Positions 29,583 through 52,462 of a stretch of 64,000 nucleotides of DNA are shown piece after piece; position 1 is the stretch's first letter, and every line of letters starts with the position of its first letter. The notes under the pieces are model-generated. The model had not been told where the DNA came from. It made no database searches and saw only the letters and a list, made by a program, of their open reading frames with translations. Source of the DNA: an uncultured Bacteroidales bacterium (GTDB taxonomy: Bacteria; Bacteroidota; Bacteroidia; Bacteroidales; Bacteroidaceae); assembly GCA_902786925.1 (NCBI GenBank), contig CADAEK010000001.1, positions 1-64,000 of the forward strand. Reading direction: 5' to 3'. The position numbers and the translations under genes were made by a program.

Positions 29583-29590
29583 TACCTTTG
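29583..29590 (+). promoter_or_regulatory. Promoter -7 box of the PstS-like gene
   Basis: TACCTTTG. The -33 position reads TTC and not TTG, which suggests dependence on an activator. Confidence 0.7.
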
Positions 29591-29641
29591 CACCAGAATT
29601 CAAAACAGAACGATTTATCCATTAAGAAAATTACAGACGAC

Positions 29642-30559
29642 ATGAAGGTAAGAACATTATTTACAGTAATAGCAACAGCCGTAGCTCTTACGGCAAGTGC
29701 AGCAACGGCGCAGAATGATGGTGTTATCACAATCAAAGTAAACAAGGCAAGCAAGGCTTTGGTAGAGCAATGGATTAAGGGGTTCAAAGCAGTGAAGCCT
29801 AACGTGGAAATAGCGCTTGTGAGCGGAAAGAGCGCTGATGCCGACCTCACCCTGGTGAACGCGCCTCAGGAGGGCGCACAAATCACTTATGTGGGACGTT
29901 ATGCCCTGCTGCCCGTTACATCTACGGAGAATCCTCTGCTCCGCGACATCCAGAAGAAGGACTGGAAGAGCAAGGACATCAAGCACCTCTTCTTCAACGC
30001 CGAGGAAGAGTTTGACGAGGAGTTTGACGACTACGAAGAGGAAACTGAAGGAAAGAAGAACAAGCTGGAGGACAAGCTGACGGTGTACTCAGGCAGCAGC
30101 AAGGCATCGCTGACCAGCACCTTCGCAGCACACTTCGGACGCAGCACAGAAGACTTGCGCGGCAATCGCATCGCAGGCGACGACTACTATCTGCTATCTG
30201 CTCTTTCCGAGGATAAGGCTGCTGTGACTTTCAATGCACTGAACAACCTCTACGACCTTTCTTCACGCACTCTCCGCAGCGACCTCGCTCTGCTGCCTCT
30301 GAGCGTCAAGACATCACAGCGTGAGGTGCTCCGCTCTGGCAATCTCGACGAGACAATCGAACTCATTGAGAAGGAGAACATCGACCTGATTCCTGTGGCT
30401 GACATCGGTTTCACTTACGGAACATTCGACAGCGACATCGACGCATTCCTGCAGTGGGTCATTCAGGACGGACAGCAGTACAACCACCAGCAGGGCTTCC
30501 TCAAACTGAGTTCCAAGGAAGTGGAAAGCCAACTGAGAGTATTAGCACTTAACCAATAG
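29642..30559 (+). CDS. PstS-like periplasmic substrate-binding protein
   Basis: A 305-aa secreted protein; the start at 29642 gives signal MKVRTLFTVIATAVALTASA. VITIKVNKASKALVEQWIKGF and SGKSADADLTLVN resemble the opening of PstS-like (type 2) binding proteins. AITY-like VGRYALLPVTSTENP and SGSSKASLTSTFAAHFG continue that pattern. An acidic insert of about 20 residues (EEEFDEEFDDYEEE) is unusual. No ABC transporter or phosphate genes are nearby, so it may act as a solute sensor or be secreted for another purpose. The ligand is unknown. Confidence 0.6.
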   Translation: MKVRTLFTVIATAVALTASAATAQNDGVITIKVNKASKALVEQWIKGFKAVKPNVEIALVSGKSADADLTLVNAPQEGAQITYVGRYALLPVTSTENPLLRDIQKKDWKSKDIKHLFFNAEEEFDEEFDDYEEETEGKKNKLEDKLTVYSGSSKASLTSTFAAHFGRSTEDLRGNRIAGDDYYLLSALSEDKAAVTFNALNNLYDLSSRTLRSDLALLPLSVKTSQREVLRSGNLDETIELIEKENIDLIPVADIGFTYGTFDSDIDAFLQWVIQDGQQYNHQQGFLKLSSKEVESQLRVLALNQ

Positions 30560-30627: not shown

Positions 30628-30656
30628 TTGCTTTTCGCCTAAAATCCATACCTTTG
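30628..30656 (+). promoter_or_regulatory. Promoter of the ThiD-AraC fusion gene
   Basis: TTG (30628-30630), 18 nt, TACCTTTG (30649-30656), right after the preceding terminator and 24 nt before the ATG. Confidence 0.7.
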
Positions 30657-30680: not shown

Positions 30681-31577
30681 ATGAAAGGGCTACACACCAT
30701 ATTGACGATTACAGGTTCGGACGGAACAGGCGTTTCAGGAGTGCAGGCTGACATCCGCTGCATCAATGCATTGGGAGGAACAGCCACCTCAGCCATCACG
30801 TCCATCACGGTACAGAACACGCTGGGCATTCAGCAATTCTACGATTTGCCTGCAGCCACCGTACGGGAGCAGATTGAGGCCATCCTCAACGACTTGCAGC
30901 CACAGGTTATCAAGATAGGCTTGCTCCGCCGCATCGAAGTGGTGGAAGTGGTAGCGGAACTGATGCGCAAGTATCACCCCAAACACATTGTGTATGCCCC
31001 CATCAGGCATTCTACCCATGGCGACCAACTGGTCAATTCCCAAGTTTTTGACACCATTCAGCAGCAACTCATTCCGCTTTGCACCGTGGTGCTGGAACCC
31101 TCCGACCTTCCACCTGGTGTCAGAAAGCACGGTCATGCCAACTTGCTGTCTGCTGCTTTGGCCTATTACCTGAGCTGCGGCGAGCAAGTGGACGAGGCGA
31201 TGCTCCATGCTCGCACATACCTCAGCCAACTGCCTGCCGGCTATACCGAAGACAACAGCCGCAGCGGTGAACTCTTCAATCTTTTCCTTGATGTGCTGAA
31301 CAAGTACTATTACCGTTACAGCGACGTGGCATTCTATGCCGAGCAGTTGGGTGTCAGCGCCCGTTACCTCGGACAGGTGACCCGCAGCATAGCCCAGCGT
31401 TCACCCAAAGCCATGATTGATGAGCGCATCACAGAAGAAGTCACCCGTCTGCTCACCACCACCAGCAAACCCCTCAAGGAAATCGCCCAGATGTTTGGCT
31501 TCTCCTCTCAAGCCCATCTTTCTAGATTCATCAAGAAGCAAAAGGGACAGGCACCCAGCACATTAAGATATCAGTAA
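30681..31577 (+). CDS. Degenerate ThiD/PdxK-like domain fused to an AraC-type DNA-binding domain
   Basis: 298 aa. Residues 1-190 align by eye with the HMP-phosphate/pyridoxal kinase fold: LTITGSDGTGVSGVQADI, then VIKIGLL. Key catalytic parts are changed. The DPV motif reads APIRHSTHGD, about 60 residues are missing between LEPSDLP and the last helix, and the GTGC anion hole is HGHANLLSAAL. Phosphotransfer is therefore unlikely. Residues 205-298 are an AraC HTH pair ending in LKEIAQMFGFSSQAHLSRFIKK. I infer a one-component regulator sensing a pyridoxine- or pyrimidine-like vitamin. PdxT-PdxS are under 3 kb away, an obvious candidate target. Confidence 0.8.
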   Translation: MKGLHTILTITGSDGTGVSGVQADIRCINALGGTATSAITSITVQNTLGIQQFYDLPAATVREQIEAILNDLQPQVIKIGLLRRIEVVEVVAELMRKYHPKHIVYAPIRHSTHGDQLVNSQVFDTIQQQLIPLCTVVLEPSDLPPGVRKHGHANLLSAALAYYLSCGEQVDEAMLHARTYLSQLPAGYTEDNSRSGELFNLFLDVLNKYYYRYSDVAFYAEQLGVSARYLGQVTRSIAQRSPKAMIDERITEEVTRLLTTTSKPLKEIAQMFGFSSQAHLSRFIKKQKGQAPSTLRYQ

Positions 31578-31653: not shown

Positions 31654-32367
31654 CTAACGTCCTATCTGCATGATGTGGATGGGACAAGCTTGAGTACACT
31701 TCCCGCACTTGATGCAGTCGGGATGCAAGTAGCCATCGGCTTCTCCACGGGCATCATAGGGTGTGAGCTGCATAGGACACACACGGGCACATTGCTTGCA
31801 CTTCATCTGGCAAGCGCTGCTGACATGCACAGTGGTGAAAGCTTTGGACGCTGACGCCTTCTTTGGTGCCACCCAACGTGAGATTGTTCCCATCGGGCAG
31901 AAGGAACACCAGGTACGAGGCGCATAGATGAAGGCCAGAATCACGCCTACCACCGTAGTGACGAGGATGATCGTCCAGAACACACGACCTATGTCGCTCC
32001 ACAGAGCAAGCCCTCCTTCGCTCCAGTGGGCTTGGCTCAGTTGGATTCCAAACATCGTGAAGATGAACAGCACCATGAAGAGGCGGAAGCCTGACGTGCG
32101 CACAAATGCAGGAATAGGCTTGTGGGGAGAGTATTTGGAGAGCAGGCGGTCAAACATGTTCCCGCGCGGACAGTAATGGCCACACCAATAACGCCCACGC
32201 CAGATGGAGGTGAGCACGGGTCCTATCATGCAGATGATTGCCACAATCCCAATAACAGGAAAGAACCATCCTAAGGCAAGATATACAGCGAGAATCCCAT
32301 ACAGTGGCTTTCCCGGTACTTCGAAATGGCGGTGGAAAGGTTTCGTTTTTTTCTTCTTTTCTTCCAT
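31654..32367 (-). CDS. FixG/NapH/NosR-like 4Fe-4S membrane protein
   Basis: The 237-aa protein has about four TM segments, two cysteine clusters between them (WCGHYCPRG and WCSFCPMG) and two C-terminal ferredoxin motifs (CQMKCKQCARVCP and CIKCGKCTQACP). This is the polyferredoxin design of NapH, NosR and CcoG. Family members pass electrons across the membrane; CcoG reduces copper. No denitrification or cbb3 genes are seen here, so the partner is unknown. It is transcribed divergently from OxyR, which hints at a link to redox stress. Confidence 0.82.
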   Translation of the reverse strand: MEEKKKKTKPFHRHFEVPGKPLYGILAVYLALGWFFPVIGIVAIICMIGPVLTSIWRGRYWCGHYCPRGNMFDRLLSKYSPHKPIPAFVRTSGFRLFMVLFIFTMFGIQLSQAHWSEGGLALWSDIGRVFWTIILVTTVVGVILAFIYAPRTWCSFCPMGTISRWVAPKKASASKAFTTVHVSSACQMKCKQCARVCPMQLTPYDARGEADGYLHPDCIKCGKCTQACPIHIMQIGR

Positions 32368-32398
32368 AATTCGTTGTCTTTTAAGATGTTTTTCGCTG

Positions 32399-32429
32399 CA
32401 AAAATACGAACTTTATGATAGACGTTCAA
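32399..32429 (-). promoter_or_regulatory. Promoter of the FixG-like gene
   Basis: Minus strand TTG (32429-32427), 20 nt, TATTTTTG (32406-32399). Confidence 0.6.
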
Positions 32430-32440
32430 ATCATTTTATC

Positions 32441-32448
32441 TATCTTTG
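32441..32448 (+). promoter_or_regulatory. Promoter -7 box of oxyR
   Basis: TATCTTTG, 29 nt before the ATG at 32478. It is back-to-back with the FixG-like promoter, so OxyR could control both from one site. Confidence 0.6.
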
Positions 32449-32477
32449 CATTGAACATATCTATCATCATATGGCAT

Positions 32478-33404
32478 ATGACCCTGCAACAACTGAAATA
32501 CATTGTGGCGATTGACCGCTACCGGAACTTCGCAAAGGCCGCTGACGCTTGTGGCATTTCACAGCCCACCTTGAGCGCCATGCTGGTGAAACTAGAAGAA
32601 GAACTTGACGTGCGGATATTTGAGCGCAACAACAAGAACGTGCAGCCTACAGCCAACGGAGAACAAATCATCCGTCAAGCAGAACGCACCCTTACCGAAG
32701 CAGAACGAATCACTTGGATAGTCAGCGAGGAGAAAGGGAAGGTGGCTGGTGAACTGTCGCTCTCTGTAGGACCGACCATTGCGCCCTACATCCTGCCGAA
32801 GTTCATCAAGCATTATGTGGCAGATTTCCCACAAGTGACGCTGAGCGTGAAGGAGCTGAAGGCTGATGCCATGCTGAGCGAGCTGCAGTTGGGACATTTG
32901 GATGCAGGCATTGCCATCAGCGGCAATGTCCAGCAGGGCATCTTGGAGATACCTCTCTATACCGAACGATTCATGGTATATCTCTCGGAGAACTGCTGGC
33001 GCAAGCTGCCCGTGTTTCACCCCAAGAACCTGGAGCATGAGAAGATGTGGGTGATGAAAGAAGCGCAATGCCTGCGCGACAGCGCCTTCAGTTTCTGCAA
33101 GGCCAAGACAAAAGGGCGCCACATCTACGAGGCGGGGAGCATCGAAACCCTCATCCGCATTGTGGACGAAAACGGAGGCTTCACCATCATCCCCGAGATG
33201 CATCTGCCATTCCTCTCCGACCGCCAGCGAGAGAACGTGCGCCCCATTGAGGGTGACTATCTCTCACAGCGCAGAGTGTCGCTCTACATCCGACAAGACT
33301 ACATCCGCCAAGCGATGCTGGGCACCATCACCAACACGCTCCTCCGATTCATGCCCAAAGGCATGATGGAGGAGCGCATTGTCAAGTATGGTATCAAGCT
33401 CTGA
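32478..33404 (+). CDS. oxyR: Hydrogen peroxide sensor OxyR (LysR family)
   Basis: The 308-aa LysR-type regulator starts at MTLQQLKYIVAI, the standard N-terminus. The HTH is FAKAADACGISQPTLSAMLVKLEEEL. The sensor domain keeps the redox pair Cys198 and Cys207 in AQCLRDSAFSFC, with the same eight-residue spacing as E. coli Cys199/Cys208, and SIETLIRIVDENGGFTIIP follows as in OxyR. It should activate peroxide defence genes through disulfide formation. None of the usual targets (ahpC, katA, dps) is in this window. Confidence 0.92.
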   Translation: MTLQQLKYIVAIDRYRNFAKAADACGISQPTLSAMLVKLEEELDVRIFERNNKNVQPTANGEQIIRQAERTLTEAERITWIVSEEKGKVAGELSLSVGPTIAPYILPKFIKHYVADFPQVTLSVKELKADAMLSELQLGHLDAGIAISGNVQQGILEIPLYTERFMVYLSENCWRKLPVFHPKNLEHEKMWVMKEAQCLRDSAFSFCKAKTKGRHIYEAGSIETLIRIVDENGGFTIIPEMHLPFLSDRQRENVRPIEGDYLSQRRVSLYIRQDYIRQAMLGTITNTLLRFMPKGMMEERIVKYGIKL

Positions 33405-33413
33405 TGCCGAAGT

Positions 33414-33974
33414 TCAGTCCTTTCCTTCCCTTGCCAGTTTCAGAAAGAATTCATGAATGCTGGTGCTGTCGTCCAGTTCAGGATGGAACGCTGTGGCCAA
33501 TTGGTTCCCTTGGCGCACAGCCACGATGTGGCCATCAACGGTAGCCAGGGTATGACAGCGGTCACTCAGAACCGTTTCCACATACGGTGCACGGATAAAG
33601 GTCATAGGCAAGTCCTCGCCTATTTCATCCACATCGCCGAAGGTATGGAAGCTGCCCAACTGCCTGCCGTAAGCATTGCGACGCACACGGATGTCCATCG
33701 TATCCAGATGCCCTTCAGAAAGCAGTATCATGCCAGCGCAGGTGCCAAACACAGGCAGCCCCTGTGCAATTGCCTCCTTCACAGGCTGGAGCAGTCCGAG
33801 CTGGGCCAACAGGCGCATCTGCACCGTGCTCTCGCCTCCAGGCAGGATAAGACCATCCTTAGGCTGTTCCCAATCTTTCAATTGGCGCACTTCAAATGTC
33901 TCTACGCCCAATCGCTGCAGCACCTGTTCGTGTTCAATGAAAGCCCCTTGCAGGGCCAAAACTGCAATTCTCAT
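33414..33974 (-). CDS. pdxT: Pyridoxal 5'-phosphate synthase glutaminase subunit PdxT
   Basis: The 186-aa class I glutaminase releases ammonia from glutamine for PLP synthesis. It shows IAVLALQGAFIEHEQVL, LILPGGEST, the nucleophile in FGTCAGMILLS and the His/Glu pair in FHPELDDS. The ATG lies 3 nt after the pdxS stop, so the two subunits of the deoxyxylulose-5-phosphate-independent B6 pathway are co-expressed. Confidence 0.96.
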   Translation of the reverse strand: MRIAVLALQGAFIEHEQVLQRLGVETFEVRQLKDWEQPKDGLILPGGESTVQMRLLAQLGLLQPVKEAIAQGLPVFGTCAGMILLSEGHLDTMDIRVRRNAYGRQLGSFHTFGDVDEIGEDLPMTFIRAPYVETVLSDRCHTLATVDGHIVAVRQGNQLATAFHPELDDSTSIHEFFLKLAREGKD

Positions 33975-33977
33975 CCC

Positions 33978-34853
33978 TTACTTTCCTCTTTCAGCCATTA
34001 AGAGTTGAATTTCCTGCTCGTTGATGCCCACCATCGCCTCGCCGAGGTCTTCCGACAGCTCAGCCAGCAGTTTAGCATCCTTGTAGTTCGTCACAGCCTG
34101 CACAATAGCAGCAGCACGCTTAGCAGGGTCACCGCTCTTGAAGATGCCGCTTCCCACAAACACACCTTCTGCACCCAGCTGCATCATCAGCGCAGCGTCG
34201 GCAGGAGTAGCCACACCACCTGCAGCAAAGTTCACTACAGGCAATTTGCCATTCTCATGTACATATTTCACCAGTTCATAAGGAGCCTGCAATTGCTTAG
34301 CAGCCTCGAAGAGCTCATCCTCGCTCATAGAGACGAGACGGCGGATTTCGCTCTGCATCAGTCGCATGTGGCTCACAGCCTGCACCACATCACCCGTGCC
34401 TGGCTCGCCCTTGGTACGAATCATCGTGGCACCCTCCGCAATGCGGCGCAGCGCCTCACCCAAGTTCTTTGCGCCACATACAAAAGGCACGTCAAACTTC
34501 GTCTTGTCGATGTGGTAGATATTGTCAGCAGGGCTCAGCACCTCGCTCTCGTCGATGTAGTCAATCTCAATGGCCTGCAGAATCTGTGCCTCTGCTATAT
34601 GACCGATACGGCACTTGGCCATCACGGGGATGCTCACCGCCTCCTGAATGCCGCGAATCATCTTGGGGTCGCTCATGCGGCTCACACCACCCGCTGCACG
34701 GATGTCAGCAGGAATTCTTTCGAGCGCCATCACAGCGCAAGCACCAGCCGCCTCAGCGATACGTGCCTGTTCTGGGGTTGTCACATCCATAATCACACCA
34801 CCTTTGAGCATCTGAGCCAACTGGCGGTTCAAGTCTTGTCTTTCGTTTGCCAT
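33978..34853 (-). CDS. pdxS: Pyridoxal 5'-phosphate synthase subunit PdxS
   Basis: This 291-aa (beta/alpha)8 barrel condenses ribose-5-phosphate, glyceraldehyde-3-phosphate and ammonia into PLP. Hallmarks are [13 protein letters not shown], the lysine in [30 protein letters not shown] and [14 protein letters not shown]. It is full length and has its own strong promoter. Operon pdxS-pdxT. Confidence 0.97.
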
Positions 34854-34898: not shown

Positions 34899-34930
34899 CA
34901 AAGGTAGCGACAATTGCCATTCACACACAA
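34899..34930 (-). promoter_or_regulatory. Promoter of pdxST
   Basis: Minus strand TTG (34930-34928), 21 nt, TACCTTTG (34906-34899). Confidence 0.75.
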
Positions 34931-35020
34931 CCTTGTTCCTGTTCTGATAAACTAAAACTCATTTTTGAAAAGCACAGAATCGTTTCTTTTTATCCTTCCC
35001 GCACACACTGACCAACAAAG

Positions 35021-35053
35021 GAGGTGGGGACGCTCTGTCAGCGTCCCCACCTC
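35021..35053 (-). terminator. Terminator after the histidine phosphatase gene
   Basis: GAGGTGGGGACGCT (35021-35034) and AGCGTCCCCACCTC (35040-35053) form a 14-bp perfect stem with a 5-nt loop. Confidence 0.8.
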
Positions 35054-35112
35054 TTCCTATTTCTTGATACGATGATGATGATGTCGTTCTGGTTCGAAAG
35101 AACAGGATGGCA

Positions 35113-51607: not shown

Positions 51608-52462
51608 ATGGGAAAGAAGCAACTGAATATCGTGTTCGTAATAGCAGGCAGTGAGCCACTGGGCAGTGCCGGCATGCAGGCCGACATCAAGGCCATTACA
51701 GCTTGCGGAGGCTATGCGGCATGTGCGCTGACAGGCATTGTGGACGAGGACACCAGAAGAGTGAAGAGCGTGACACCCATGTCGGCCGAGCTGGTGGTGA
51801 GTCAAGCAGAATCCTTCTTGGACGATGTAGGCGCCCAATGCATCAAGACCGGCGTGCTGCCTACAGCAGAAATCATTCAGGGAGTAGCAGGCGTGCTGCA
51901 ACGCCACCCGAAAGTGCACAAGGTGATTGATCCCGTGATTGTGGACAGCAACGGCGTGCAACTGGTGAGCGACGAGAGCATCGGAGCCTACAAGAAAATG
52001 CTTTTCCCTTTGGCCACACTCATCACCCCCAACTTCCGCGAGGCAGAAGTGCTGCTGAAACGCAAGATAACAAACATTGCCGAAGACATCAAGGAACTGG
52101 GGCAATGGGGCAACAGCGTCATCATTAAGAGCATGCAAAGCCAAACTTTTGCGGGGAAAGGCACATCGCCACAAGAGATGCTGTCCGATTTCCTCTACAA
52201 CGCTGAAACCGGAGAGGTGAAAGAGTTCAGGAAGCACCGCATCCCCACTCATAACGTGAACGGCACAGGCGACTCGTTCTCCTCCGCCATCGCCACTTAT
52301 CTGGCCAAGGGCTACAGTCTGTCGGAAGCTGTGGAGAAAGGCGAGGAGTTCATCAGTCGGGCCATTGCTCTGGGCGCAGAATATGAGTTCGGGCACGGAT
52401 ATGGCCCTGTACATCCATGTTTCATGGAAGACAAAGTGATACACGAAAGAATCTATAACTAA
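51608..52462 (+). CDS. ThiD/PdxK-family kinase (pyridoxal or HMP-phosphate kinase)
   Basis: The 284-aa ribokinase-fold enzyme has [51 protein letters not shown] and the anion hole [12 protein letters not shown]. The catalytic residue in GTGD is Asp as in pyridoxal kinases; canonical ThiD has Cys there, so a B6 salvage role is somewhat favoured. Unlike the ThiD-AraC protein at 30.7 kb, all catalytic parts are present. leuB follows after 14 nt. Confidence 0.8.

Follow-up and report, generated by a model that had tools for sequence, protein, structure and literature searches.

A ThiD kinase-derived domain fused to an AraC-type DNA-binding domain: a probable vitamin B6-responsive regulator of pdxST in Bacteroidales

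Gene organisation at the locus

The window analysed here is a 64,000-nucleotide stretch of DNA from an uncultured, Prevotella-like Bacteroidales bacterium of the rumen. A gene on its plus strand (30681-31577) encodes a putative ThiD-AraC fusion regulator of 298 amino acids with an ATG start, in which a kinase-derived domain (residues ~1-192) is followed by a helix-turn-helix (HTH) pair (residues ~195-298). Just upstream lies an open reading frame (29588-30559, plus strand; ~304 amino acids counted from the start used in the scan), for which Pfam gives no match and the only similarity is a weak PstS-like one. The predicted targets of the regulator are encoded on the minus strand, near the fusion gene and at the positions given in an earlier reading of the sequence alone: pdxT, the glutaminase subunit (33414-33974; PF01174, E 2.5e-50), and pdxS, the PLP synthase subunit (33978-34853; PF01680, E 6e-108), which form an operon with a 3-bp gap.

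Two genes recognised by domain scans separate the regulator from pdxST, a NapH-like ferredoxin gene (31654-32367, minus strand) and an OxyR-like LysR regulator gene (32415-33404, plus strand). They were rejected as partners because they intervene solely in the lineage of the window and locus L003; in L004-L006, which are near relatives, the regulator leads directly into pdxS. Both genes are probably not part of the regulator-pdxST system, and the operon was probably split in recent times by the rearrangement that placed them at 31654-33404.

Domain architecture of the fusion protein

The window gene carries a ribokinase-like ThiD fold and a C-terminal AraC-type double HTH. Residues 14-137 match positions 1-123 of the 246 in the Pfam profile PF08543 (Phos_pyr_kin; E 2.2e-38, above cut-off), and residues 219-296 match HTH_18 (E 7.4e-18; 65.1 bits against a cut-off of 33.6). 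The full-length ThiD model TIGR00097 gives the window protein 123.2 bits, which is below its cut-off of 204.95. In the AlphaFold model (pLDDT 82.9, pTM 0.63), the best fold match of residues 2-192 is the ThiD structure 7r8y (Z 22.0, rmsd 2.6, 172 aligned), and the ThiD enzyme 4jjp is matched with Z 21.7. Residues 195-298 superimpose on MarA with Z 15.6 and rmsd 1.1 over 103 residues. The sequence-only reading had described the N-terminal ~190 residues as the substrate-side part of a ThiD kinase and the C-terminus as an AraC HTH pair, and both descriptions are borne out by these matches.

Alignment with 7r8y extends up to residue 138 of the window protein and resumes at residues 149-182, with the enzyme passing from position 157 to 227 over the gap. 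Relative to this structure, ~59 enzyme residues are absent, all in the nucleotide half. The window protein has GHAN (residues 151-154) in place of GTGC and API in place of DPV, so that the loss of both motifs and of ~60 residues, as previously claimed, is confirmed.

Catalytic residues, substrate pocket and selection

Residue counts across the family separate the fusions from active enzymes. The Cys of GTGC is present in 0/59 fusions, whereas 20/21 ThiD-type kinases carry it and the sole exception has Asp. Kinase activity, which the sequence-only reading had regarded as evidence against its proposal, is therefore contradicted at the sequence level by the absence of this residue from every fusion. 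The D of DPV is gone in 44/59. In contrast to these lost catalytic residues, the substrate side is nearly invariant: S13, D14, D24, K78, G80, H150 and G151 are each present in 59/59 fusions and Q22 in 57/59. Q45 is also found in 57/59, which is every member having that position, given that L082 and L083 are locally deleted there. The equivalent position holds Q in 19/21 ThiD-type rows and in 7l07, the common ancestor of the HMPPK and PLK/HMPPK kinases.

The fusion genes are under purifying selection. For pairs with computable dS, comparison of the window gene with its relatives gave omega values of 0.05-0.10 in the kinase region and 0.05-0.08 in the HTH region, both being rough because dS is high. 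A pseudogene, an artefact or a chance fusion is ruled out by these values together with the recurrence of the architecture in dozens of genomes. The combination of lost catalytic residues, near-invariant substrate-side residues and selection fits the conversion of an enzyme to a putative sensor.

Distribution and phylogeny of the fusion family

A single-protein scan of 84,980 species genomes returned 17 loci, all in records of Prevotella-like or other Bacteroidales bacteria save L012, whose record title names just an uncultured bacterium. Within the GTDB family, 201 genomes were searched with a profile, which identified 39 full-length fusions in 38 genomes. Full-length fusions matched with E 6e-92 or better and extended to the end of the HTH, and were clearly set apart from ordinary ThiD proteins, which matched with E 8e-66 or worse and ended near position 190. 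Beyond the GTDB family, five genomes from the same order yielded six full-length fusion genes between them, and a sample of 296 genomes from the phylum yielded none outside Bacteroidales.

The fusion family has a single origin. A midpoint-rooted tree built on the kinase region of 67 sequences places all 46 fusions in one clade (100/100). One deep branch of this clade holds nearly full-length but dead forms of 347-388 amino acids (L076-L083, L094, L098, L100-L102), and forms of 293-368 amino acids, some partly and some strongly shortened, make up the other. Because the deep branches divide near-full-length dead forms from shortened ones, the catalytic loop appears, in outline and given the midpoint rooting, to have been lost first and the nucleotide half to have shrunk later.

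Several members depart from the common arrangement. One assembly (G156) contains two complete regulator-pdxS-pdxT operons (L052 and L053) with different regulator subtypes. In L082 and L083, the strand around Q45 is deleted and the fusion lies 4.5-5.7 kb from pdxST, with a motif-like site remaining at pdxS; sensing may have changed in these two loci. Genome G214 carries a long-form fusion adjoining pdxST and additionally a second, fast-evolving copy away from pdxST (L099:8273-9187). In genome G456, which is 94% complete, a fusion with a motif-like site in front (L097:7667-8665) occurs and no pdxS was found; this fusion is a relic or else controls other B6 genes.

Genomic linkage to vitamin B6 genes and the distribution of thiC

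Among the 201 genomes of the GTDB family, pdxS occurs in 45, and 38 of those 45 carry the fusion. All 38 fusion genomes have pdxS, and the profile search found the fusion in 0/156 genomes without it. Within the sampled genomes of genera g5 and g9, each taken alone, fusion and pdxS are either both present or both absent. Most fusion genes in this sample (35/39) directly adjoin pdxS. The remaining four comprise two lying 4.5-5.7 kb off (G144 and G163) and those of the window genome (G000) and its close relative G147, where the NapH-like and OxyR-like genes cause the split. At nearly all loci examined the fusion gene runs straight into pdxS-pdxT, in most with a gap of ~0-140 bp. Outside the GTDB family, 4/6 fusions adjoin pdxST; the two orphans are L097 and L099, and the genome of L097 has no detected pdxS. 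Neighbourhood analysis had been proposed as the means of breaking the B6 link, and it instead found a nearly universal linkage to pdxST; together with the co-occurrence it argues strongly for a connection between the fusion genes and vitamin B6.

The thiamine side of the proposed vitamin link was not supported. The thiamine gene thiC is present in just 17/38 fusion genomes and absent from the window genome, and this distribution lends no support to a thiamine regulon. The only other PF08543 protein of the window genome is a full-length, fast-evolving ThiD-like kinase (51608-52462, plus strand), in which GTGD replaces GTGC and E replaces Q at the pocket position. Since the genome has no thiC, this protein may not be a standard ThiD but a kinase of the pyridoxal or salvage type. 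A MocR-type PdxR was also considered as the pdxST regulator of the window genome and set aside, since no GntR-domain protein was found in that genome.

A predicted operator at the pdxST promoter

Reading the upstream regions of the fusion loci first brought a shared motif to notice. Against shuffled sequences, for which the maximum was 19/28, most short-form sites scored 20-26. A weight matrix was built from 27 non-redundant sites, those of the window and of L003 being withheld from training, and has the consensus ..ccAAA.TG..tTTTc.TTTaTCA.AA..GGAACa...TTT.g. The ~40-bp motif is located just upstream of -33-like and -7-like (TAnnTTTG) elements of whichever unit carries pdxST. Where regulator and pdxST share one transcript, the motif precedes the regulator; where they have separate promoters (L003-L006, L019, L055, L057, L082, L083 and the window), it stands at pdxS and not at the regulator. 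This location is the strongest single argument for the proposed target, because the motif follows pdxS and not the regulator gene. In the seven pdxS genomes without a fusion, no motif was found at pdxS (scores -11 to -25 bits). The long-form clade matches the consensus weakly (+12 at best with the matrix, GGAAC-like blocks being visible), so the operator has diverged or differs there.

In the window, the predicted operator upstream of pdxS occupies 34924-34969 on the minus strand, with its conserved core (AAAAATGAGTTTTAGTTTATCAGAACAGGAAC) at 34935-34966. This site scores 40.3 bits with the matrix trained without it, against 4.0 bits for the next-best match on either strand of the window, and is the sole site at two or fewer mismatches in the window genome (2.59 Mb, 92% complete). 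The predicted pdxST promoter lies directly downstream (34899-34930, minus strand) and consists of a -33-like TTGTG (34926-34930) and the -7 element TACCTTTG (34899-34906). Both element names follow the promoter pattern of Bacteroidota, in which TAnnTTTG is the -7 consensus. The conserved operator core stops upstream of the -33-like element and does not extend over the promoter core. A strong terminator-like stem of 14-16 bp, reading in both directions (35019-35055), insulates this promoter from the upstream gene. The regulator has a -7-like box of its own (TACCTTTG, 30649-30656, plus strand), and no operator motif was found at the regulator's promoter in the window (best score -22.7). The earlier suggestion of pdxS-pdxT as candidate targets gains from this conserved, operator-like motif, which sits at the pdxST promoter even in the window, where the regulator is detached.

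A wider regulon was sought in 20 relatives, and most extra matches at two mismatches were at the level of a reversed-pattern control. With the window genome having one site, a second target is not claimed. In several species (e.g., L065 and L068), the two outer arms of the site loosely mirror each other as inverted repeats, a possible sign of a dimer. The statistical support is modest: the match between paired outer arms exceeds that between swapped ones (p 0.0012), but the rows are related and many sites show no such repeat. An outer-arm axis was not clearly supported by a dyad column test, and a palindromic operator was not adopted.

Proposed mechanism and alternative explanations

The evidence makes it quite probable that the fusion protein is a one-component, B6-responsive regulator that activates pdxST from the predicted operator. 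An ancestral ThiD-family kinase domain would have been fused once to an AraC-type DNA-binding domain, would have lost its catalytic Cys and later much of its nucleotide-binding half, and would have kept its substrate-side pocket for sensing. Through its AraC domain, the protein is predicted to bind the ~40-bp site that adjoins the -33 element of the pdxST promoter on the upstream side. When B6 is scarce, the regulator would recruit polymerase and activate pdxST; when a B6 vitamer occupies the old substrate pocket, the regulator would be switched off. The earlier notion of an enzyme turned into a vitamin sensor is supported for B6 on the grounds of the dead kinase, the kept pocket, the linkage and co-occurrence with pdxST and the motif, but not for thiamine.

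We infer that the motif is bound by the fusion protein in the manner of an AraC-type regulator; the motif is found at the promoters of this operon family, and a different factor could bind it. The ligand is presumed to be a B6 vitamer, i.e., pyridoxal, pyridoxine or PLP rather than HMP. In other bacteria, apo-PdxR activates pdxST and PLP acts as an anti-activator (PMC5320631). The regulator is probably likewise an activator of pdxST, given the predicted site immediately before the promoter and the analogous action of apo-PdxR activators.

The same regulator and target could also be read the other way round, with the ligand-bound protein blocking pdxST and B6 acting as co-repressor. A site abutting the -33 element could indeed obstruct RNA polymerase, and the regulator gene, standing behind the same site in most genomes, would then be autoregulated. 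However, the conserved core terminates short of the promoter core, and AraC-type regulators usually activate from sites just upstream of the promoter core, so that repression is considered unlikely. The nature of the ligand could be disputed as well, given that the nearest folds are HMP-P kinases and the ThiD-type Q45 is retained; a domain sensing HMP, HMP-P or another thiamine intermediate would couple B6 synthesis to thiamine metabolism. Against this stand the thiC distribution, the genomic linkage to pdxST and the Q in 7l07, and Q45 does not exclude pyridoxal because the common ancestor of HMPPK and PLK/HMPPK carries it. Such thiamine-side sensing is quite unlikely.

Two further explanations concern the kinase-derived domain itself. 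It is very unlikely to be a mere dimerisation module with something else as the signal: ThiD enzymes of solved structure form dimers, short members have a reduced nucleotide half and L082 and L083 lack part of the pocket strand, but pocket-side residues kept in 57-59 of 59 members rank with the best-conserved positions of the domain and are more conserved than dimerisation requires. An active bifunctional B6/HMP kinase moonlighting as a regulator would agree with the fold and family membership and is extremely improbable; judged by its residues, an active enzyme appears ruled out by the missing catalytic Cys and the replaced GTGC loop, and the window protein has lost much of the nucleotide half besides.

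Taken at family level, the B6-responsive activator probably represents an undescribed group of Bacteroidales B6 sensors, which would consist of a dead kinase fused once to an AraC domain, its nucleotide half shed stepwise, standing in for PdxR with an operator of its own. If this is true, rumen and gut bacteria would have a separately evolved solution to the task of PdxR. The family would offer living intermediates between enzyme and sensor, in the shape of full-length dead, partly shortened and half-domain forms. An HMP-P kinase annotation in these genomes may conceal a regulator, a caution for predictions of vitamin auxotrophy, and the window genome offers a single testable operator and proteins ready for assay.

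Comparison with known systems

A search of the open-licence PubMed Central subset found no publication on a ThiD-AraC fusion family, and databases may list the architecture without comment. In the same subset, no kinase-derived B6 regulator was found in papers on B6 regulation, which describe the MocR-type PdxR instead. PdxR, with a GntR winged HTH and an aminotransferase-like domain, resembles the fusion as a one-component pdxST regulator that joins an HTH to a B6-binding domain of enzyme origin, and its gene often adjoins pdxST. The parts are unrelated, the fusion having the ThiD kinase fold and the AraC HTH, and Pfam and NCBIfam scans found neither the GntR winged HTH nor the fold-type I aminotransferase domain in the window protein. 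The fusion protein is thus not PdxR by homology, and is proposed to work like it.

Among enzymes, ThiD/HMP-P kinase and the ThiD2/PdxK pyridoxal kinases share the fold and the substrate-side residues. The fusion differs from them in having no catalytic Cys, a lost GTGC loop, a reduced nucleotide half and an added HTH. The two-HTH DNA-binding domain is that of the AraC/XylS family (MarA, AraC, SoxS), in which the usual sensor is cupin-like or of another kind, whereas here it would be a kinase relic. An archaeal parallel is ThiR, in which an HTH is fused to the thiamine phosphate synthase domain ThiN, so that an enzyme domain of vitamin metabolism has likewise been recruited as a sensor; ThiR has another enzyme fold and HTH family, concerns another vitamin and belongs to another domain of life. 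The general design of an enzyme domain turned sensor and joined to an HTH is already known from PdxR and ThiR.
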